Assembly: GCA_018335275.1 (NCBI GenBank)
Contig: JAGXKM010000010.1
Span: 1-42,269, forward strand
Reading direction: 5' to 3'
DNA from: Anaerolineales bacterium
GTDB lineage: Bacteria; Chloroflexota; Anaerolineae; Anaerolineales; UBA11858
Length of the DNA: 42,269 nucleotides
Part shown: in pieces, positions 1,236 through 20,215 of the stretch
Layout of the letters: each line of letters starts with the position of its first letter
How positions within the stretch are numbered: position 1 is the stretch's first letter
Made by a program: the position numbers and the translations under genes
The notes under the pieces: generated by a model
What the model was told of the DNA's origin: nothing
The model's input: only the letters and a program-made list of their open reading frames with translations
The model's database searches: none

Positions 1236-1784
1236 ATGAGAGATGATGAGAAAAAGCGCATCCAACGCGCTCAATGTGGAGATAAAGAAGCCATTGCTGC
1301 TCTCTATGACCAGCATTACGAGGCGATTTTCAACTACCTTTATTACCGGGTGGGCCATCTATCCATTGCGGAAGACCTCACGGCCGATGTGTTCCTACGC
1401 ATGATCGACAACCTGGCCTCCTACAAAGACCAGGGAAGGCCGTTTTTGACCTGGTTATACACCATCGCCCGCAACCGGGTGATCGATCATTACCGGAAGG
1501 AAGATGGAAAAAATCCCCTGCCGATCAAAGAAGAACGAATCGCAGGATCGACAGGAATCCCCCGGCAACATGTACAGGATCAAGAAATGTCCTTCTGTTT
1601 CACCAAAGCCCTCCACCACTTAACTGAAAATCAGCGCCGGGTGATCATCCACAAAATCATAGACCAGAGATCCACCCGTGAAACCGCAAAATTGCTTCAA
1701 AAATCAGAAGGAGCTGTGCGATCCCTCCAGTACAGAGCTTTAGAAGCTTTAGAAAAAGCGCTCCGGGAGGAAAAATGCCTCTGA
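1236..1784 (+). CDS. ECF-type RNA polymerase sigma factor
   Basis: This 182-residue protein (ATG at 1236; a GTG at 1221 would add five residues) has the two domains of an extracytoplasmic-function sigma factor. Sigma region 2 spans about residues 18-85, including LYDQHYEAIFNYLYYRV, EDLTADVFLRM and FLTWLYTIARNRVIDHYRK. Sigma region 4 spans about 120-172, including LTENQRRVIIHKI and the helix-turn-helix SEGAVRSLQYRALEALEKAL. It directs RNA polymerase to an unknown regulon. The stop overlaps the next gene by 10 nt, indicating translational coupling to a membrane partner that may act as its anti-sigma factor. ATG 1236 is preferred because a purine-rich stretch lies about 6 nt upstream, though the SD is weak for both starts. 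Confidence 0.9.
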   Translation: MRDDEKKRIQRAQCGDKEAIAALYDQHYEAIFNYLYYRVGHLSIAEDLTADVFLRMIDNLASYKDQGRPFLTWLYTIARNRVIDHYRKEDGKNPLPIKEERIAGSTGIPRQHVQDQEMSFCFTKALHHLTENQRRVIIHKIIDQRSTRETAKLLQKSEGAVRSLQYRALEALEKALREEKCL

Positions 1785-2890
1785 ATGAGAAACCATTTGC
1801 TGCCATTGTAGAAATTTGTCTGGAAAGGATAAAGGAAGGGGAATCCGTCGAGTCCTGTCTGTCATCCTTCCCAGAACACGCCAAGCGTCTGGCCCCTTTG
1901 CTGAATGCTGCCTCCTTCAGCATGGATATTAAAACTCCACAGCCCGATCCAAAAGCAAAGTCACAGGGAAGAGAGAGGGTGATCGCCGCCAGCGAAAGGT
2001 TGCGAAAAAGGTCGAATTCCGTGACAGATGAAACGAAATCCCCCCTCCTTCGTTATGCAAGACGAATGATAAACAGCGTCCGAGCTTACTTTGTACCAAA
2101 GGAGAAACCCAATATGAAACTGACATACCGGATCGCAATTTACGCCGTGATCACCATGGTGCTGGGTAGTTTCTTCAGCGTGAACGCCTCCGCCGAGAGC
2201 CTGCCCGGGGATCCCCTATACAGCATGAAACGCAGCTGGGAAAACGCCCAACTGGCCTTGACCCTTAATGAGAACGCCAGGGAGAAGCTGGAAACCCAGT
2301 TTAATGTAAAAAGGATCAACGAAATTCAGGCATTACTCTCGCAAGGTTCGGCAGAGAAGGTCGAATTTACTGGTTCGATCACGGAAATGTCGGACCCCAT
2401 TTGGAACATCGCCGGATTTCCCGTCAGACTTGGTCCGGACACAGAAGTAGAGGGGGAGATGGAGATTGGAACGGTAGTGAACGTGGAAGCCTTAACCCAG
2501 GAAGATGGAACCCTGCTGGCGGTGGAAGTTGAAGAAAGCTCCGGGGAGGATATGGAGGATGATTCGCCTCAAGGCCCGCTGCCCATGGAAATCGATGACG
2601 ACCTGGATGACGATTCCGATGACGACGATATGGATGACGACCCGGAAGACGAGATGGATGATGGCTACGATGACGACGACGCCGGCGATGACATGGATGA
2701 TGACGACGCCGACGATGACATGGATGATGACGATGACGACGATGACATGGATGATGACGACGCCGACGATGACATGGATGATGACGATGACGACGATGAC
2801 ATGGATGATGACGATGACAGCGATGACATGGATGACGACGATGAAAATGACAGCGACGATGAAGCGGATGATGATGACGAGGATGATTAA
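1775..2890 (+). CDS. DUF5667-type membrane partner of the sigma factor with a long Asp-rich tail
   Basis: The 371-residue product begins with a cytosolic part. Residues 8-46 (EICLERIKEGESVESCLSSF, then PEHAKRLAPLL) resemble the start of putative anti-sigma proteins from Chloroflexi. One membrane span lies at about 117-138. Then comes a DUF5667-like segment (about 143-190, SLPGDPLYSMKRSWENAQLA) and a DUF5666-like beta segment (about 194-252). Residues 257-371 are almost only Asp with Met, Glu, Ala and Ser, encoded largely by a 27-bp tandem repeat. Given one span with a basic N-terminus inside, the acidic tail should face outside and could bind divalent cations or cell-wall polymers (inference). 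The start at 1775 has GGGAGG just upstream. The family names come from recognised motifs, not a search. Confidence 0.75.
   Translation: MPLNEKPFAAIVEICLERIKEGESVESCLSSFPEHAKRLAPLLNAASFSMDIKTPQPDPKAKSQGRERVIAASERLRKRSNSVTDETKSPLLRYARRMINSVRAYFVPKEKPNMKLTYRIAIYAVITMVLGSFFSVNASAESLPGDPLYSMKRSWENAQLALTLNENAREKLETQFNVKRINEIQALLSQGSAEKVEFTGSITEMSDPIWNIAGFPVRLGPDTEVEGEMEIGTVVNVEALTQEDGTLLAVEVEESSGEDMEDDSPQGPLPMEIDDDLDDDSDDDDMDDDPEDEMDDGYDDDDAGDDMDDDDADDDMDDDDDDDDMDDDDADDDMDDDDDDDDMDDDDDSDDMDDDDENDSDDEADDDDEDD
2687..2848 (+). repeat. 27-bp coding tandem repeat, six units
   Basis: Six consecutive 27-bp units (starting 2687, 2714, 2741, 2768, 2795, 2822) each begin GATGACATGGATGA and encode DDMDDDDxx. 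Units 1 and 3 end in an Ala codon plus Asp; units 2 and 4 end in Asp-Asp. Units 1+2 and 3+4 therefore also form a 54-bp higher-order repeat. The last two units have diverged. Such an array can expand or shrink by slippage or recombination without a frameshift. Confidence 0.9.
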
Positions 2891-12535: not shown

Positions 12536-13597
12536 GTGGCATTTTCTCCCTTCGATTGGCTGTTGGGACGCTTTTCACTGGACATTGGGATCGATTTAGG
12601 CACCGCAAACACACTGATCAACGTCCGCGGGAAAGGGATCGTGATCAACGAGCCCTCCTGGGTAGCGGTTAATAAAAGGACTAACGAGCCCATTGCCATA
12701 GGAGCTGCCGCGAAAGAAATGGTCGGCCGCACGCCAACCAATGTCGTCACCCTGCGCCCGCTGCGGGACGGCGTGATCTCCGAGTTTGAGATCACGGAAG
12801 CGATGCTGGAGTATTACATCGCCAAAGCTCATCAACAGAGCATTGTCCCTGTGCCGCGCCCCCGGGTGGTGATCGGCATCCCCGCCGGTGTGACCGCCGT
12901 GGAAAAACGAGCCGTGTTCGACGCCTCCATGGCAGCCGGGGCCAGGCAGACCTTCTTGATTGAAGAACCGGTGGCTGCCGCATTGGGCGCCGGCCTGCCC
13001 ATCGACGAAGTGCGCGGGAGCATGGTCGTGGACATCGGAGGCGGGACCTCCGAAGTGGCTATCATGTCCATGGGCGGGGTGGTCAACTCCCGCTCCCTGC
13101 GCGTGGCTGGGGACGAATTGGATGAGGATATCATCCAATACATCCGCAATAAATACAACATCCTGATCGGCCAGGGGATGGCAGAGGAAGCGAAAATTGC
13201 CGTCGGCTCTGCGTACCCATTAAAAGAGGAACGAACAACTTCTGTGCGGGGCCGGAATTTGATCACCGGCCTGCCGGATTCCGTGGAAATATCCTCCATC
13301 GAACTTCGGGAAGGGATCGCGGATTCCGTGCAGACGATCATCGACGTCATCAAAGACTCCCTGGATGAAACTCCACCCGAGATCATGGCGGACTTAATGG
13401 ACACCGGGATCTGTCTGGCAGGCGGCGGAAGCCAACTGCTCGGGCTGGACCAACGACTGACAGATGAACTTTCTTTCCGGGCCTGGCTAGCGGAGGATCC
13501 CATCAGCTGCGTAGCCCGCGGCGCAGGGATCGCTCTGGAAGATTTTGCTAAATGGAGCGGCCTCTTTGTAGGCCTGGAACGCCAACCCGGGCAATGA
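12536..13597 (+). CDS. mreB: Rod shape-determining protein MreB (bacterial actin)
   Basis: The 353-residue protein has the MreB actin fold: phosphate-1 motif DIGIDLGTANTLI (16-28), phosphate-2 motif VVDIGGGTSEVA, and the adenosine motif GICLAGGGSQLLGL. It polymerises at the inner face of the membrane and guides peptidoglycan synthesis along the cell cylinder. It is the first gene of mreBCD-mrdA-minCDE-rodA, with mreC 128 bp downstream. The GTG start has GGAG 8 nt upstream. Length is normal for the family (about 340-350). The N-terminus (AFSPFDWLLGRF) could act as a short membrane-binding helix. Confidence 0.96.
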   Translation: MAFSPFDWLLGRFSLDIGIDLGTANTLINVRGKGIVINEPSWVAVNKRTNEPIAIGAAAKEMVGRTPTNVVTLRPLRDGVISEFEITEAMLEYYIAKAHQQSIVPVPRPRVVIGIPAGVTAVEKRAVFDASMAAGARQTFLIEEPVAAALGAGLPIDEVRGSMVVDIGGGTSEVAIMSMGGVVNSRSLRVAGDELDEDIIQYIRNKYNILIGQGMAEEAKIAVGSAYPLKEERTTSVRGRNLITGLPDSVEISSIELREGIADSVQTIIDVIKDSLDETPPEIMADLMDTGICLAGGGSQLLGLDQRLTDELSFRAWLAEDPISCVARGAGIALEDFAKWSGLFVGLERQPGQ

Positions 13598-13725
13598 AAA
13601 TCGCTGCTCATCGGCCACCTCTTCCAGCGGCCTCAGGCACCCCCGAGCAACTCACCTAAAACACTCCACGGGAAAAGAAAATCACAAAATTCATTCAACC
13701 CTTTAACATTCACAATCGTTGATTT

Positions 13726-14574
13726 ATGAACCAGCAGTTTCCAAATTCCATCCGCATATTCGTCTTCAGCCTGCTTGCCCTGGGGATCTTCCTCCTCGCC
13801 CTGGGAGGATATATCCCTACCCTGACCCGGGCGGTCCTCATCCCCCTGACGTCCTCCCAAACCTGGATCTCCCAGCAGTTTCAGGGTCTGGAGGATTTCA
13901 TATCCGCCCCGCGGGATGTGGCTGCTATTCGCAGGGAAAATCAGAACCTGGAGGCCGAAAACGCCCGCCTGGAAGCCCAAATCATCGAGCTCCAACAGCA
14001 GCTTCTGGAGTTTGAGATCCTCTCCGCCCTGCTTGATTTCGCCCGGGCCCAGCCGGAGCACACGTACCTTGGGGCCACAGTCATTGGCCGGGACCCCAGC
14101 CCCTTCCTGGATTACCTGATCATCAACCGCGGTTCAGATGACGGACTGCAGCGAGGGATGCCCGTGGTTTCCCAGAACGGCCTGGTGGGGCGCATCGCCC
14201 AGGTCTCAGCTAAGAGCGCCCGGGTGCAGTTAATCACCGATCCCAGCGTGAAAATAAACGTCCAGGTCCAGCCTTCCCAGAGCGAGTCGGTACTCACGGG
14301 GACGATCACGGGAGACATCCGGCTGGAGCAGATCCCCCAGAACACAAACGTCACCCCGGGTAACCTGGTCCTGACCTCAGGCCTGGGAGGAAATTACCCC
14401 CCCAACATCATCGTCGGGCAGATCACAAGCGTCCGGAACCCGGAAGCCGCCCTTTTTCAGAGCGCCTCCTTGCAGCCGGTGACGGACTTCGCGGATCTGG
14501 ACATCGTCCTGGTGATTACCAATTTCAACCCTGTCGACATCCAACCTCTGATCCCCACCCCCGAAGCCCCCTGA
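13726..14574 (+). CDS. mreC: Rod shape-determining protein MreC
   Basis: This 282-residue protein has an N-terminal membrane anchor (about 9-30, IRIFVFSLLALGIFLLALGG), a coiled coil (about 64-100, RRENQNLEAENARLEAQIIE) and the double beta-barrel domain of MreC (about 110-265; GATVIGRDPSPFLDYLIINR, VVSQNGLVGRIAQVS, VLTSGLGGNYPPNIIVGQI). It links cytoplasmic MreB to the penicillin-binding protein and RodA outside the membrane. No clear Shine-Dalgarno sequence precedes the ATG, so the start is set by family alignment. mreD follows after 30 bp. Confidence 0.93.
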   Translation: MNQQFPNSIRIFVFSLLALGIFLLALGGYIPTLTRAVLIPLTSSQTWISQQFQGLEDFISAPRDVAAIRRENQNLEAENARLEAQIIELQQQLLEFEILSALLDFARAQPEHTYLGATVIGRDPSPFLDYLIINRGSDDGLQRGMPVVSQNGLVGRIAQVSAKSARVQLITDPSVKINVQVQPSQSESVLTGTITGDIRLEQIPQNTNVTPGNLVLTSGLGGNYPPNIIVGQITSVRNPEAALFQSASLQPVTDFADLDIVLVITNFNPVDIQPLIPTPEAP

Positions 14575-14604
14575 CCCTGATACAAAGAGGTCCTCGCTGA
14601 CTTT

Positions 14605-15108
14605 ATGATCTCAATCCTGCTCAGCATCCCCATATTAAGCCTGGTGACCATCATCCAATCCGCGGTGGTGAGCCGGATGCCCCTCGTTCAGGGCACAGCG
14701 GACCTGGTGATGGTGGTCATCATCGCCTGGGCCCTCCAAAGGCGCGTGAAATACCCCTGGCAGTGGGCGCTTATGGGGGGGATTCTGATGGATTTTTTCT
14801 CCAGTCTCCCCTTCGGAGTGTACACATTGAGCTACCTGGTCCTTTCCGTGCTGGCCCAGCTCATGAGCCAGCGTTTATGGAAATTCTCATTTCTGATTCA
14901 GCTTTTTTTGACCCTGCTTGGTACAATGTTGGTACACATCATCTCCACCCTGGTGCTGTTCCTCCAGGGGACAAGTTTAGAGATCCTGCGTGTGCTGCAA
15001 TCGATCACCCTCCCCAGCTTGCTGTTAAACCTGATGCTGACGCTCCCGGTATATATCATCATGGTAGATTTTGCACACCAGCTTTACCCTGAAGAAGTTG
15101 AATTATGA
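14605..15108 (+). CDS. mreD: Rod shape-determining membrane protein MreD
   Basis: The 167-residue, very hydrophobic protein has about five membrane spans, as expected for MreD. It includes the conserved region WQWALMGGILMDFFSSLPFG (GGxxxDxxSxxPFG-like). It is part of the rod complex with MreB, MreC, PBP2 and RodA; its precise role in the family is not settled. Its stop overlaps the mrdA start by 4 nt (ATGA at 15105-15108), so the two are translationally coupled. Confidence 0.9.
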   Translation: MISILLSIPILSLVTIIQSAVVSRMPLVQGTADLVMVVIIAWALQRRVKYPWQWALMGGILMDFFSSLPFGVYTLSYLVLSVLAQLMSQRLWKFSFLIQLFLTLLGTMLVHIISTLVLFLQGTSLEILRVLQSITLPSLLLNLMLTLPVYIIMVDFAHQLYPEEVEL

Positions 15109-17210
15109 AAAACACATCCACGGCAAGAAACAAACTTGAAAACAACCGCTTCCTGTCTTTTGCCATCTTGGTGGCGGGAATCTTTTTTGTTTTCGTCTTT
15201 CGTCTGTTCACGATCCAGATCCTGAATGGAGGGACCTGGGCCGCTCAGGCGGAGGAAAACCGGCTGAGGGAGATCAGCCTCGCCCCGGCCCGGGGAGTGA
15301 TTTTTGACCGGCGCGGAATCGTCCTGGCCCGAAACGTGGCCTCTTACAATGTGGTGGTTACAGCAGCCCAGCTTCCAGATGATGAAGGGGCAATTCAGGA
15401 CATCATCCGCTCCCTGGCGAAGTACATTGACGTCCCCATCAACCAAAGCCAGATCACGCAGGAAAACCCATTCGTGCCCTGCCTGTCGGACCACGGCATC
15501 TCCCAGATCATCCGTTACGGGGAGCAGAGCGCCCCTTACCGGGAAGTGAAAATCGCCTGCAACATCGATGAAACAGCTGCCCGGCTGATCCAGGAAAACG
15601 CCATCGATTGGCCGGGGATCTCCATCGAAATTGAACCTGTCCGGGAGTATCCGACCGGAGACCTTACCGCCAATTTCGTCGGCTTCCTGGGCCCCATCTC
15701 CAGTGTTGAAGAGGAATATTACACAGAACGAGGGTTCGTGACCAACCGCGACAAGGTCGGCTACGCAGGGCTGGAACTTTCCTTTCAATCCCTCCTTTCC
15801 GGGAAACCGGGTAAACGCCTCGTTGAGGTGGACGTGGCAGGAAAGATCATCAGGGACGCGAAACCCGTCATCCCCTCCATCCCCGGACAAAATATTCACA
15901 CGACCATTGACACCCGCCTGCAGCAGGCTGCCAAATCCATCCTGCTTAAAGAGATCAATGACTGGAACGAATATCTCGGCGAACTGAGGATGACCAGCGG
16001 CGTGGTGATCGCCATGGACCCCAGGACGGGGGAAGTGTTAGCAATGGTTTCTTACCCGACCTACGAAAACAACCGCATGGCCCGCATCATCCCCGCCTAT
16101 TACCTGGAACAGCTCAACGCGGATGTCCGGGACCCACTCATCAACCAGGCCGTGGCAGCGGAGATCCCTGTGGGGTCCGTGTTCAAGATCTCCACAGCTG
16201 TGGGCGCCCTCAACGAAGGGGTCGTGGACCCGGAAGAGAAGATCACAGCCCCACCGGAAATCAAACTGGTCAACAAATACACACCCAACGATCCCAGCCG
16301 GAGCAAAACCTATGTGGATTGGAAAGACGAGGGATTCGGATCGGTGAATTTCCTGGAAGGGCTCGCAAACTCAAGCAATGTGTACTTTTACCAGCTCAGC
16401 GGAGGTGACGCGGAAGAAACGGGGACAGGGGTCCCCGGTGAGGTCCCGGAAGGGCTGGGCATCTGCCGCCTTGGTACCTACGCCCGGGCCCTGGGCTACG
16501 GTGAGAACCCGGGCATAGAACTTCCCTATCAAGAGGACGGGATCATCCCTTCACCGAAGTGGAAGCGCATCGCCCACGGTGAAAACTGGTCCACAGGCGA
16601 TACTTATATCGCCGGCGTGGGGCAGGGGTTTGTGACCGCTACTCCCCTGCAGGTCTTGATGTCGGGGGCAACCATTGCCAACGACGGACGGTTGATGAAA
16701 CCCACCATCATCCGGGAAATCACAGACGAAAAAGGGGAAACCATCGTTCCCTTCCAGGCAGAGGAAAAGTGGGATATCACCCAGGATCCAATGATCGACG
16801 TTTTCAATAACCCGACCAGTGCGGGGGGATGTGAAGCGAAAATGACCGGCGAGAAAACCACTGTTGAGCCCTGGGTATTGGAAAAGGTGCAAGAGGGGAT
16901 GCGGTTGGCGGTCACGGACGGCACCCTGGAAGATCCTTTCGAGAACATGAGTATCCCGGCAGCGGGAAAGACAGGGACCGGAGAATACTGCGACACATGG
17001 GCCAACGAGAAAGGCTTGTGTGTGCCCGGACGATGGCCCACACACTCCTGGACGTTAGCTTATGCGCCCTATGAAAACCCTGAAATCGCCGTGGTGGCAT
17101 TTGTTTACAACGGAGGGGAAGGGGCCAGCGTGGCCGGTCCCATTGTAAGGCGGACGATCGAAGCCTATTTCGAACTGAAAACCATTGACACTCGAGCAGG
17201 AAATCCCTGA
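15105..17210 (+). CDS. mrdA: Penicillin-binding protein 2 (peptidoglycan transpeptidase)
   Basis: This 701-residue class B penicillin-binding protein has a membrane anchor (about 17-40), the PBP dimerisation domain (about 60-250; PARGVIFDRRGIVLARN, PVREYPTGDLTANFVGFLG) and a transpeptidase domain (about 290-690). The transpeptidase carries the three active-site motifs: Ser358-Val-Phe-Lys361, Ser423-Ser-Asn425 and Lys622-Thr-Gly624. It cross-links peptidoglycan during elongation, working with RodA. It sits in an operon between mreD (4-nt overlap) and minC. The region around 435-460 and 560-590 contains several Cys residues and an insert compared with a compact PBP2. Length is slightly above the usual 600-680. 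Confidence 0.93.
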   Translation: MKNTSTARNKLENNRFLSFAILVAGIFFVFVFRLFTIQILNGGTWAAQAEENRLREISLAPARGVIFDRRGIVLARNVASYNVVVTAAQLPDDEGAIQDIIRSLAKYIDVPINQSQITQENPFVPCLSDHGISQIIRYGEQSAPYREVKIACNIDETAARLIQENAIDWPGISIEIEPVREYPTGDLTANFVGFLGPISSVEEEYYTERGFVTNRDKVGYAGLELSFQSLLSGKPGKRLVEVDVAGKIIRDAKPVIPSIPGQNIHTTIDTRLQQAAKSILLKEINDWNEYLGELRMTSGVVIAMDPRTGEVLAMVSYPTYENNRMARIIPAYYLEQLNADVRDPLINQAVAAEIPVGSVFKISTAVGALNEGVVDPEEKITAPPEIKLVNKYTPNDPSRSKTYVDWKDEGFGSVNFLEGLANSSNVYFYQLSGGDAEETGTGVPGEVPEGLGICRLGTYARALGYGENPGIELPYQEDGIIPSPKWKRIAHGENWSTGDTYIAGVGQGFVTATPLQVLMSGATIANDGRLMKPTIIREITDEKGETIVPFQAEEKWDITQDPMIDVFNNPTSAGGCEAKMTGEKTTVEPWVLEKVQEGMRLAVTDGTLEDPFENMSIPAAGKTGTGEYCDTWANEKGLCVPGRWPTHSWTLAYAPYENPEIAVVAFVYNGGEGASVAGPIVRRTIEAYFELKTIDTRAGNP

Positions 17211-17217
17211 TCAATCG

Positions 17218-17226
17218 TGCTATAAT
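17218..17226 (+). promoter_or_regulatory. Extended -10 promoter of the min genes
   Basis: TGC directly before a perfect TATAAT lies 8 nt after the mrdA stop. Together they form an extended -10 element that could drive minCDE-rodA on its own. Confidence 0.6.
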
Positions 17227-17293
17227 CCTTCCGTAAGAACATGTATTCTATAAAAGGCACAAACCTATCATGATTCGTGCCGGAGACAGGGGA

Positions 17294-17974
17294 ATGGGAA
17301 AAAAAAACATCGAAATTAAAGGGATCAGGGACGGTATTCTGGTCGAAATCAGCTCTGGCGACTGGAAAAAAAGGGAAAAAGAACTCCTGGACCACATAAA
17401 AAATAACAAACAGTTTTTCAAAGGAGGGCGTTTAGCGCTGGATGTCGGCAGCCACAAACTGAAAACGGACCGCCTGGCTTCCCTGAGAAATGCCCTCTCC
17501 GACCAAAACATCACCCTGTGGGCCGTGAAAAGCTCTTCCCTGGTCACGGAGCGCACGGCGCAAAACCTGGGCTTGTCGATCCGCATCCAGCAATCCACCG
17601 CGGAACAACAAGGAGAGTTTCCCTCTTCCACCATTGAAGGTGAGGAAGCGGTGTTCGTGCAGCGCACACTGCGCTCGGGGCACAAAATTAAACACGTAGG
17701 GCATGTGATCATCCTCGGTGATGTCAACCCCGGGGCAGAGATCGTCGCCGGCGGGAACATCATCGTCTGGGGACGTTTGCGGGGGACCGTACACGCGGGC
17801 GCCAAGGGTGATGAAGAGGCTGTGGTATGCGCATTGCAGCTCTCCCCCACTCAATTGCGGATCGCGGATAAGATCAGCATTTCCCCAGCAGAGGATAGAA
17901 AGGTGGAGCCCGAGATCGCCCAACTAAAGGACGGTCAAGTGATCGCCAGGAACTGGAACAGCAGATCAGGTTAG
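17294..17974 (+). CDS. minC: Septum site-determining protein MinC (FtsZ inhibitor)
   Basis: The 226-residue protein has a divergent MinC N-domain (about 1-100, KNIEIKGIRDGILVEISSGD) and the conserved C-terminal beta-helix (about 118-212) with QRTLRSGHKI and GDVNPGAEIVAGGNIIVWG. The N-domain blocks FtsZ assembly; the C-domain binds MinD and forms dimers. ATG 17294 is preferred over ATG 17270 because GGAG at 17282-17285 is 8 nt upstream of it, while 17270 has no SD. It precedes minD by 23 bp. Confidence 0.93.
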   Translation: MGKKNIEIKGIRDGILVEISSGDWKKREKELLDHIKNNKQFFKGGRLALDVGSHKLKTDRLASLRNALSDQNITLWAVKSSSLVTERTAQNLGLSIRIQQSTAEQQGEFPSSTIEGEEAVFVQRTLRSGHKIKHVGHVIILGDVNPGAEIVAGGNIIVWGRLRGTVHAGAKGDEEAVVCALQLSPTQLRIADKISISPAEDRKVEPEIAQLKDGQVIARNWNSRSG

Positions 17975-17997
17975 GACAAGGCAAAGAGGAACAGCGT

Positions 17998-18798
17998 ATG
18001 GCAGCTAAAGTCATCACCATCACTTCTGGAAAAGGCGGAGTCGGCAAGACAACCGCCACCGCGAACATCGGCGCCGCCCTTGCCAAGGGCGGGCATACAG
18101 TGGCCTGCATAGACGCTGATATCGGACTGCGCAATTTGGATGTGGTCATGGGTTTAGAAAATCGGATCGTCTACGATCTGGTTGATGCCGTCGAAGGCCG
18201 CTGCCGGCTGAAGCAGGCCATGATCAAGGATAAACATATCCCGGGCTTATTCCTGATCCCCTCCGCCCAAACCCGGGATAAAAATGCGGTCTCTCCCACA
18301 GATATGATCCGCCTGTGTGATGAACTGCGCTCTGAGATGGATTACATCCTGATCGATTCTCCCGCAGGCATTGAGCGCGGTTTTCGAAACGCACTGGCAC
18401 CCGCGGACGAAGTGATCGTGGTCACCAATCCCGAGGTTTCCGCTGTCAGGGACGCGGACCGCATCATCGGGATCATCGAGGCGGAAGAAAAGGGTCCAGC
18501 GAAGCTGCTCATCAACCGCCTCAATCCGGAGATGGTGAGGCATAAGAACATGATCTCCGCGGATGATGTGGTCGATTTACTGGCCATCCAGTTGATAGGC
18601 ATCATCCCGGAAGATAAAAATGTGATCATCAGCACCAACACCGGGGTCCCCGTGGCCACGGACGGGAAAAGCCTGGCTGGTGAAGCCTACCGCAACGTGA
18701 GCCTGCGGCTTCAAGGAAATACTGTCCCTTTCATGGACCTCAGCAAAGGAAGCGGACTTTTCGGTTTGATTTCAAACGTCTTCGGAACAGGAGAATAA
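17998..18798 (+). CDS. minD: Septum site-determining protein MinD (membrane ATPase)
   Basis: This 266-residue ParA/MinD-type ATPase starts with the deviant Walker A motif GKGGVGKTT (10-18). It has switch regions (CIDADIGLRNLDVVMGLENR, ILIDSPAGIERGF) and ends with an amphipathic membrane-targeting helix (SGLFGLISNVFG). ATP-bound MinD binds the membrane and recruits MinC; MinE stimulates ATP hydrolysis and release. minE follows after 4 nt. Confidence 0.97.
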   Translation: MAAKVITITSGKGGVGKTTATANIGAALAKGGHTVACIDADIGLRNLDVVMGLENRIVYDLVDAVEGRCRLKQAMIKDKHIPGLFLIPSAQTRDKNAVSPTDMIRLCDELRSEMDYILIDSPAGIERGFRNALAPADEVIVVTNPEVSAVRDADRIIGIIEAEEKGPAKLLINRLNPEMVRHKNMISADDVVDLLAIQLIGIIPEDKNVIISTNTGVPVATDGKSLAGEAYRNVSLRLQGNTVPFMDLSKGSGLFGLISNVFGTGE

Positions 18799-18802
18799 TA
18801 GC

Positions 18803-19069
18803 ATGGCTAACTTTCTCACCCGTCTATTCTCTAATGAACCCAGCAGCGCCAGACAGGCCAAAGAACGCTTGCAGCTGGTATTGATAAACGACCGGACCAA
18901 CCTGACGCCCGAAACGATGGATTCTTTAAAAGACGATCTCCTGGACGTGATTTCCCAGTACATTAAAATCGATCCGAAGTCCGTGAAAATAGACATCGCC
19001 CAGGAAGGGCGAGAACAGCGATTAATCGCCGATATCCCCATTACCGGCGGAGAACAGCGCAGATACTAG
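18803..19069 (+). CDS. minE: Cell division topological specificity factor MinE
   Basis: The 88-residue protein has an N-terminal membrane-binding helix (FLTRLF), the anti-MinCD segment (about 15-30, ARQAKERLQLVLINDRTNL) and the dimeric topological domain (about 34-80, LKDDLLDVISQYIKIDPKSV). MinE drives MinD oscillation so that division occurs at mid-cell. Its presence suggests an oscillating rather than DivIVA-type Min system. It sits 4 nt after minD and 3 nt before rodA. Confidence 0.93.
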   Translation: MANFLTRLFSNEPSSARQAKERLQLVLINDRTNLTPETMDSLKDDLLDVISQYIKIDPKSVKIDIAQEGREQRLIADIPITGGEQRRY

Positions 19070-19072
19070 CCT

Positions 19073-20215
19073 ATGCGAAATATTTCTTGGCGTCACTTTG
19101 ACTTCTGGCTCTTGGGTGCGGTGGCTTTTTTGACCATATTCGGCGTGGCCATGATCAGCTCCGCCATCGCCGGAAACCCCACCCTGGTGGAAGCCAATAC
19201 CGTGACAAAGCAAATGATCTTTGCCGCAGCCGGCTTTGCGGTCATGTTCCTGACTGCGGTCATCGACTACCGCTACTGGAGCGCGGTGAGCAATTTCTTG
19301 TATTTAATCACCGCCGGCATTTTAGCCGTCTTATATCTCTTCGGCGCCACCCTTTTTGGTTCCACCCGCTGGTTTACATTGGGCCCGATTTTAATTCAGC
19401 CCTCTGAGATCGCGAAGATCATCATCATCCTCATCCTGGCGGACTTCTTCTCCAAAAACATCGAAAAGATCAACCAGCCCCTGACGATCTTACGCAGCGT
19501 ACTGGTGACAGGGGGAATCATGATCTGGGTTTTGATCCAGCCTGATTTAAGCACCTCGATCGTCCTCCTTGTGCTCTGGTTTGCCCTGCTGTGGGCCAGC
19601 GGTCTGAAAGTCAAACAACTGCTTATCGCCAGCGGCGCAGGAGCCATGGCTCTGCTGGTGGGGTTCCCGCTCATGCTCCTCAGCTACAGCAATGAAACAA
19701 CCGGAGGACTGATCAAGCCTTACCAAATCCGGCGGATCATCAACTTTCTGTTCCCCGAGGAGGATGCCAGCTATGGAGCGATCTACAACGTTCAGCAGGC
19801 CCTGATCAGCATTGGCTCCGGAGGCTGGCTGGGCCGGGGGTACGGCAGCGGTTCCCAAGTCCAGCTTCGTTTCCTGAAAGTGCGCCATTCAGACTTCATT
19901 TTCTCTGCCCTTGCTGAGGAATTCGGTTTTGCGGGCGCCCTGGCTGTGCTCCTCTTGCTGGCGTTCATCATTTACCGCTGTCTGCGAGCTGCTCGCATGG
20001 CCGGAGATACCTACGGCGCCCTGACCGCATACGGCGTCGCCGCCCTGATCACGTTCCAAACCATCGTCAACGTCAGCGTGAACCTGAAGCTCCTCCCGGT
20101 GACCGGATTGACCCTGCCTTTCGTGAGCTACGGCGGGAGTTCGTTGATCACCCTTTTCATCGGCATTGGCCTGGTGGAAAGCGTCATCCTCCGCCACAAA
20201 GAACTTGAATTTTAA
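19073..20215 (+). CDS. rodA: RodA peptidoglycan glycosyltransferase (SEDS family)
   Basis: This 380-residue protein has about ten membrane spans and the SEDS signatures: GSTRWFTLGPILIQPSEIAK, IQPDLSTSIVLL, GSGGWLGRGYGSGSQ, RHSDFIFSALAEEFGF (with the Asp thought to be catalytic) and LPVTGLTLPFVSYGGSS. It polymerises lipid II into glycan strands during cell elongation, paired with PBP2 encoded four genes upstream. RodA is preferred over FtsW because of the mre/mrdA context. It closes the operon; a loose inverted repeat ATCATCC/GGATGAT (about 20225-20255) follows. Confidence 0.93.
   Translation: MRNISWRHFDFWLLGAVAFLTIFGVAMISSAIAGNPTLVEANTVTKQMIFAAAGFAVMFLTAVIDYRYWSAVSNFLYLITAGILAVLYLFGATLFGSTRWFTLGPILIQPSEIAKIIIILILADFFSKNIEKINQPLTILRSVLVTGGIMIWVLIQPDLSTSIVLLVLWFALLWASGLKVKQLLIASGAGAMALLVGFPLMLLSYSNETTGGLIKPYQIRRIINFLFPEEDASYGAIYNVQQALISIGSGGWLGRGYGSGSQVQLRFLKVRHSDFIFSALAEEFGFAGALAVLLLLAFIIYRCLRAARMAGDTYGALTAYGVAALITFQTIVNVSVNLKLLPVTGLTLPFVSYGGSSLITLFIGIGLVESVILRHKELEF

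Follow-up and report, generated by a model that had tools for sequence, protein, structure and literature searches.

An ECF sigma factor gene overlapping the gene of a putative DUF5667-type anti-sigma factor with an extremely acidic tail in an Anaerolineales bacterium

Described systems and the gene pair of the window

The closest described systems come from Streptomyces and Bacillus. In Streptomyces, sigma-BldN is paired with RsbN, a class III anti-sigma factor (PDB 6dxo). In Bacillus, RsiV is activated when signal peptidase cuts after its transmembrane span (PMC6066255), and RsiP is likewise activated via signal-peptidase cleavage after the span (PMC8844934). The ectodomain of a further membrane anti-sigma factor of Bacillus, RsgI, senses cell wall defects, according to the part of PMC10202637 that relates Brunet 2022.

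The window analysed here is a stretch of 42,269 nucleotides from an Anaerolineales bacterium (assembly GCA_018335275.1, contig JAGXKM010000010.1). As the original prediction stated, a sigma factor gene overlaps the gene of a one-span protein. The features of the locus are:

1236-1784, + strand: ECF sigma factor gene, 182 aa, ATG start at 1236, with regions 2 and 4 (Pfam)
1775-2890, + strand: gene of the one-span membrane partner, a putative anti-sigma factor of 371 aa; 10-nt overlap with the sigma gene
1796-2023, + strand: cytoplasmic N-domain of the partner, putative sigma-binding part (AlphaFold2, mean pLDDT 73)
2129-2185, + strand: predicted transmembrane span, residues about 119-137, at the hydropathy maximum
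2180-2194, + strand: signal-peptidase-like V-N-A-S-A, residues 136-140, directly C-terminal to the span; candidate site-1 cleavage
2198-2365, + strand: DUF5667 (PF18915), residues 142-197, Pfam 43.3 bits (cut-off 27); predicted helical hairpin
2369-2533, + strand: DUF5666 (PF18914), residues 199-253, Pfam 30.5 bits (cut-off 27), full profile
2543-2887, + strand: Asp-rich low-complexity tail, residues 257-371, 115 aa, predicted disordered, net charge -83
2669-2844, + strand: 27-bp in-frame tandem repeat coding for DDDDxxDDM, 6.5 copies, 92% match
2933-2958, + strand: terminator-like hairpin 43 nt past the partner stop, from a consensus scan alone (5 found vs. 3.4 expected)

Sigma70_r2 (residues 23-90, 66.5 bits) and Sigma70_r4_2 (residues 121-172, 40.2 bits) both exceeded their Pfam cut-offs in the sigma protein, and TIGR02937 scored 98.7 bits (cut-off 42.9). 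On these Pfam and TIGR02937 matches, the product of 1236-1784 has the make-up of an ECF sigma factor, sigma2 and sigma4 without a long region 3. The BldN equivalog TIGR02952 was the top of 106 NCBIfam families (141 bits), and the nearest solved structure was Streptomyces sigma-BldN (PDB 6dxo_A, E=4.6e-29). Unlike BldN, however, the present sigma factor is below the equivalog cut-off of 206.45 bits. An ECF-like promoter candidate upstream (AAACAAAGGGCCTTCCCGCTCGT, 1190-1212) was based on a single weak pattern match and was rejected.

The start of the partner gene (1775) falls within the sigma gene and is preceded by a Shine-Dalgarno sequence, GGGAGG, at 1765-1770. Basic residues flank the span on its N side, which by the positive-inside rule predicts an N-in/C-out topology. 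The DUF5667-like and DUF5666-like parts of the original prediction were confirmed as Pfam matches above cut-off. The DUF5667 match covers profile positions 2-57 of 99, and its helices (145-162 and 166-190 in the structure model) have low or middling confidence. DUF5666 was modelled as a five-stranded OB-like barrel and is well predicted (pLDDT about 80-87); Foldseek with the partner model matched mainly OB-fold proteins, none of them reaching E 0.001. The whole-partner model, of low overall confidence (mean pLDDT 53), consists of a helical N-domain, the span, the helical DUF5667, the barrel and the disordered tail. No zinc-finger or RseA-type family, as in class I (ASDI) anti-sigma factors, was found in the partner (Pfam, E up to 1). 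DUF4179 or other RsiV domains and the RsgI domain were not found either by Pfam, in which the partner differs from RsiV and from RsgI. SigI itself is not known to belong to the BldN-like ECF sigma factors.

The pair resembles sigma-BldN/RsbN in the nearest solved sigma factor, in the adjoining gene for a one-span anti-sigma factor, here a putative one, and in the predicted helical N-domain; as in that system, the partner is far more divergent than the sigma factor (PMC4255298). Modelled alone (AlphaFold2), the N-domain forms helices at 8-20, 25-31, 33-50 and 59-83, and its motif CL..I..GxS.E.CL..FPEhA..L.PLL is kept in 35 homologues. RsbN was the sole PDB match of the N-domain sequence (phmmer, single sequence). 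Homology to RsbN is a lead only, since this match is not significant (E=0.21) and profile searches with the N-domain did not recover RsbN. Pairwise hhalign of the two gave P 0.0065 and a probability of 5.8%. The fold search with the N-domain was uninformative: RsbN was not in the result list, an absence that is no evidence against homology.

Elsewhere in the window, an apparently decayed RHS/YD-repeat-like remnant was recognised by eye on the minus strand at 240-830, split between three frames (SDHLGSTAVTAHVDG..., GLYFYQARWYDPALGRFAQADTLIPEP); a start resembling that of a signal peptide lies close to it. A wall-growth and division cluster at 12536-20215, about 10 kb away from the pair, was also recognised by eye (mreB, mreC, mreD, a transpeptidase, minC, minD and rodA/ftsW); the identity of the transpeptidase was confirmed with Pfam.

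The DUF5667 family and the motif after the span

DUF5667 was present in 172 of 301 sampled Chloroflexota genomes and, within the order, in 135 of 201. In the search for sigma/DUF5667 pairs in Chloroflexota proposed in the original prediction, a sigma gene lies upstream, usually overlapping, in 81 of 85 distinct DUF5667 genes, these being the best-scoring loci and not a random set. Seventy-four of the 81 were directly upstream at first pass and seven more after over-long ORF starts were allowed for. L001, one of the four genes without a direct sigma gene, comes from the window's own genome, where a single sigma gene is followed by two DUF5667 genes, L001 being the latter of them. The search for relatives in named genomes returned one locus (L079), which encodes the same protein as L005 in genome G007, of the window's genus. 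Viral contigs searched for relatives gave no match, and the literature search found no paper naming DUF5667 and four that mention DUF5666. Sigma/DUF5667 pairing is ordinary in Chloroflexota, and only the degree of acidity is rare. The original prediction had considered the two domains plus an Asp tail an undescribed unit; the extreme acidity stands, but the combination belongs to a recurrent, sigma-linked family.

Signal peptidase recognises [AV]xA. In the 12 residues preceding LPxD, this motif was found in 84 of the 85 homologues, compared to a shuffle expectation of 48.3 (sd 3.8). It occupied a fixed register (-7 to -5) in 60/85 and register -5 to -3 in 32, and the remaining registers were used 13 times or fewer. 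In a non-redundant set (n=53, less than 50% identical), the fixed register was found in 37 and the motif anywhere in 52. The partner of the window matches, at the motif level, the sequence of RsiV/RsiP-type proteolysis (VNA/ASA at 136-140); like the Bacillus proteins it has one span with a signal-peptidase-type site, here a motif, directly past it (PMC6066255, PMC8844934). In the host genome, M50 peptidases are represented by four matches, S26 peptidases by two and transpeptidases of the penicillin-binding type by four. The conserved [AV]xA is plausibly what RsiV/RsiP-type proteolytic activation, with cleavage at this site by analogy, would require; alternatively, the motif might cap a helix or mark the exit from the membrane.

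Composition of the tail in the window and among relatives

The last third of the partner had been described as nearly pure Asp/Met/Glu, and the count agrees: the 115-aa tail contains D75, M10 and E8 with zero K/R, and makes up about 31% of the protein length. Six consecutive Asp codons occur in the tail and nowhere else in the 2.47-Mb genome, and the net charge per residue of the last 100 aa (-0.78) is the lowest of 82 DUF5667 proteins (next -0.36, median -0.05). The acidic tail is therefore no chance product.

The two nearest relatives of the sigma factor, both of the same genus, are 42-43% identical to it. The partner tail of the nearest is (DDKVQDK)n and near-zwitterionic, as Lys offsets Asp (net -11 in 82 aa). 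The next has a Gly/Gln-rich repeat tail (net -13), and its recognisable DUF5667/5666 sequence is lost. The original prediction had proposed a tail binding Ca2+ or Mg2+; as these orthologous tails pair Asp with Lys or are rich in Gly and Gln, specific cation chelation is not conserved among orthologous pairs, and the claim of a dedicated site finds no support in the form proposed. One orthologous partner, L008 (1396-2418), keeps the N-domain, the span and the ASA motif and has a repeat tail, without recognisable DUF5667 or DUF5666.

Comparison of the C-termini across the family, also proposed originally, revealed no alignable tail sequence, and composition varies even among the closest relatives. 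A hydrophilic low-complexity tail is almost always there in DUF5667 partners. Tandem repeats were found downstream of DUF5667 in 36 of 85 genes, every period being a multiple of 3, and upstream of it in 3 of 85. The tail is hypervariable, repeat-borne and probably fast-changing, and that of the window is the most acidic of the family. The repeats are observed; that tandem-repeat DNA may let the tail change quickly is deduced from the divergence of relatives. In the window's own genome (G000), locus L017 (contig C134, 941-3423) combines one sigma gene with two DUF5667 partner genes in tandem behind it, whose repeat tails are K/P/G-rich.

Tail net charge was negative in 31 of the 32 partners bearing DUF5666 (median -0.19), compared to a median of -0.01 in the 49 without DUF5666 (Mann-Whitney p=3e-11, kinship ignored). 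The 32 come from seven families of the order, with a negative median in each; 20 belong to one family. This net-negative charge makes a bulk-charge role possible; a wall-gap role is a further possibility for a disordered tail. Judging from sequence, the conserved trait is a net-negative, predicted disordered tail, and specific cation binding by the tail is not conserved. Asp-rich C-terminal ends were also seen in L023, L068 and L075; those of L023 and L075 (the second DUF5666 ORF), e.g. DDESDDDDLDDDFDDDNDDDDDDD, are apparently independent of the window tail.

Proposed switch and alternative readings

We somewhat favour a stress-response switch made up of a sigma and an anti-sigma gene, of the DUF5667 type, which would be proteolytically released and in which the tail would act by bulk properties. 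The partner is likely to be an anti-sigma factor, a putative function assigned from gene order and domains. Its helical cytoplasmic N-domain would tether the BldN-like ECF sigma factor to the membrane. Outside, just past the span, would lie the [AV]xA site, then the helical DUF5667 and the OB-like barrel of DUF5666. By analogy with RsiV and RsiP, a change in envelope state may shift the ectodomain and open site 1 to cleavage by signal peptidase or a protease of that sort; a site-2 (M50) protease would then cut within the membrane and free the sigma factor. The poly-Asp tail, as the outermost disordered part, might probe the wall or polymer layer through its length, hydration and negative charge. 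The tail would most likely work through such bulk properties and not as a domain that binds ions specifically. RsgI is a precedent for a wall-sensing ectodomain, likened to the partner by description. The disordered region of RsgI is reportedly required, and is said to be exchangeable for unrelated ones.

A stronger version of the bulk-property reading holds that, in DUF5666-bearing partners, net negative charge is selected and sequence is left free. The tail would then probe ionic strength or wall-polymer state as a polyelectrolyte coded by its charge and tuned by changes in repeat length, and would set when the signal-peptidase-type site is exposed and the BldN-like sigma factor released. 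We consider this version unlikely. The tail may instead have no sensing role, being a by-product of in-frame minisatellite expansion at the end of an exposed protein, which is tolerated and persists only because, being soluble, it is not in the way of anything. Repeats whose periods are divisible by 3, the lack of a common sequence, and compositions that differ between the closest relatives and between paralogues such as the C134 pair are consistent with such a by-product, but the almost constant retention of a hydrophilic low-complexity tail and the negative charge in 31/32 DUF5666-bearing partners of seven families (kinship ignored) argue against it, and we regard it as possible, though on the improbable side. 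Binding of Ca2+/Mg2+ or cationic wall polymers by the tail, with ion occupancy relayed to the sigma factor, would suit a strong polyanion of 75 Asp and 8 Glu with zero basic residues, as well as the recurrence of net-negative tails with DUF5666 and of Asp-rich ends in three further loci. However, EF-hand, RTX or other known calcium-binding families were absent from the partner (Pfam, E up to 1), and the tails of the two nearest relatives are balanced by Lys or rich in Gly/Gln; this explanation seems quite unlikely to us.

The partner could also be a processed envelope protein, its ectodomain released by signal peptidase and its gene merely co-transcribed with the sigma gene. The signal-peptide-like end of the span in 84/85 homologues fits this, as do those DUF5667 genes that lie behind another DUF5667 gene or for which no sigma gene was detected. 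Hard to reconcile with it are the long cytoplasmic domain, which is conserved and takes up about 110 residues ahead of the span, and a sigma gene nearly always directly upstream, usually overlapping; we judge it very unlikely. An assembly or frame artefact might be suspected in the repeat tail, given that several frames are open across the repeats and that the genome is a draft in 204 contigs. We rejected this scarcely credible reading on the grounds that the repeat periods keep the frame and that independent genomes have comparable tails of in-frame repeats; moreover, the reading frame runs on from DUF5666 into the tail, with repeat units that are all multiples of 3.

If, as in the proteolytically released switch that we favour, DUF5667 partners act as anti-sigma factors whose cleavage site is fixed while their disordered tail is free and charge-biased, they would form a large, unassigned signalling family. 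Their tails would then offer a natural series for asking whether bacterial disordered sensors use bulk charge and length, not sequence.
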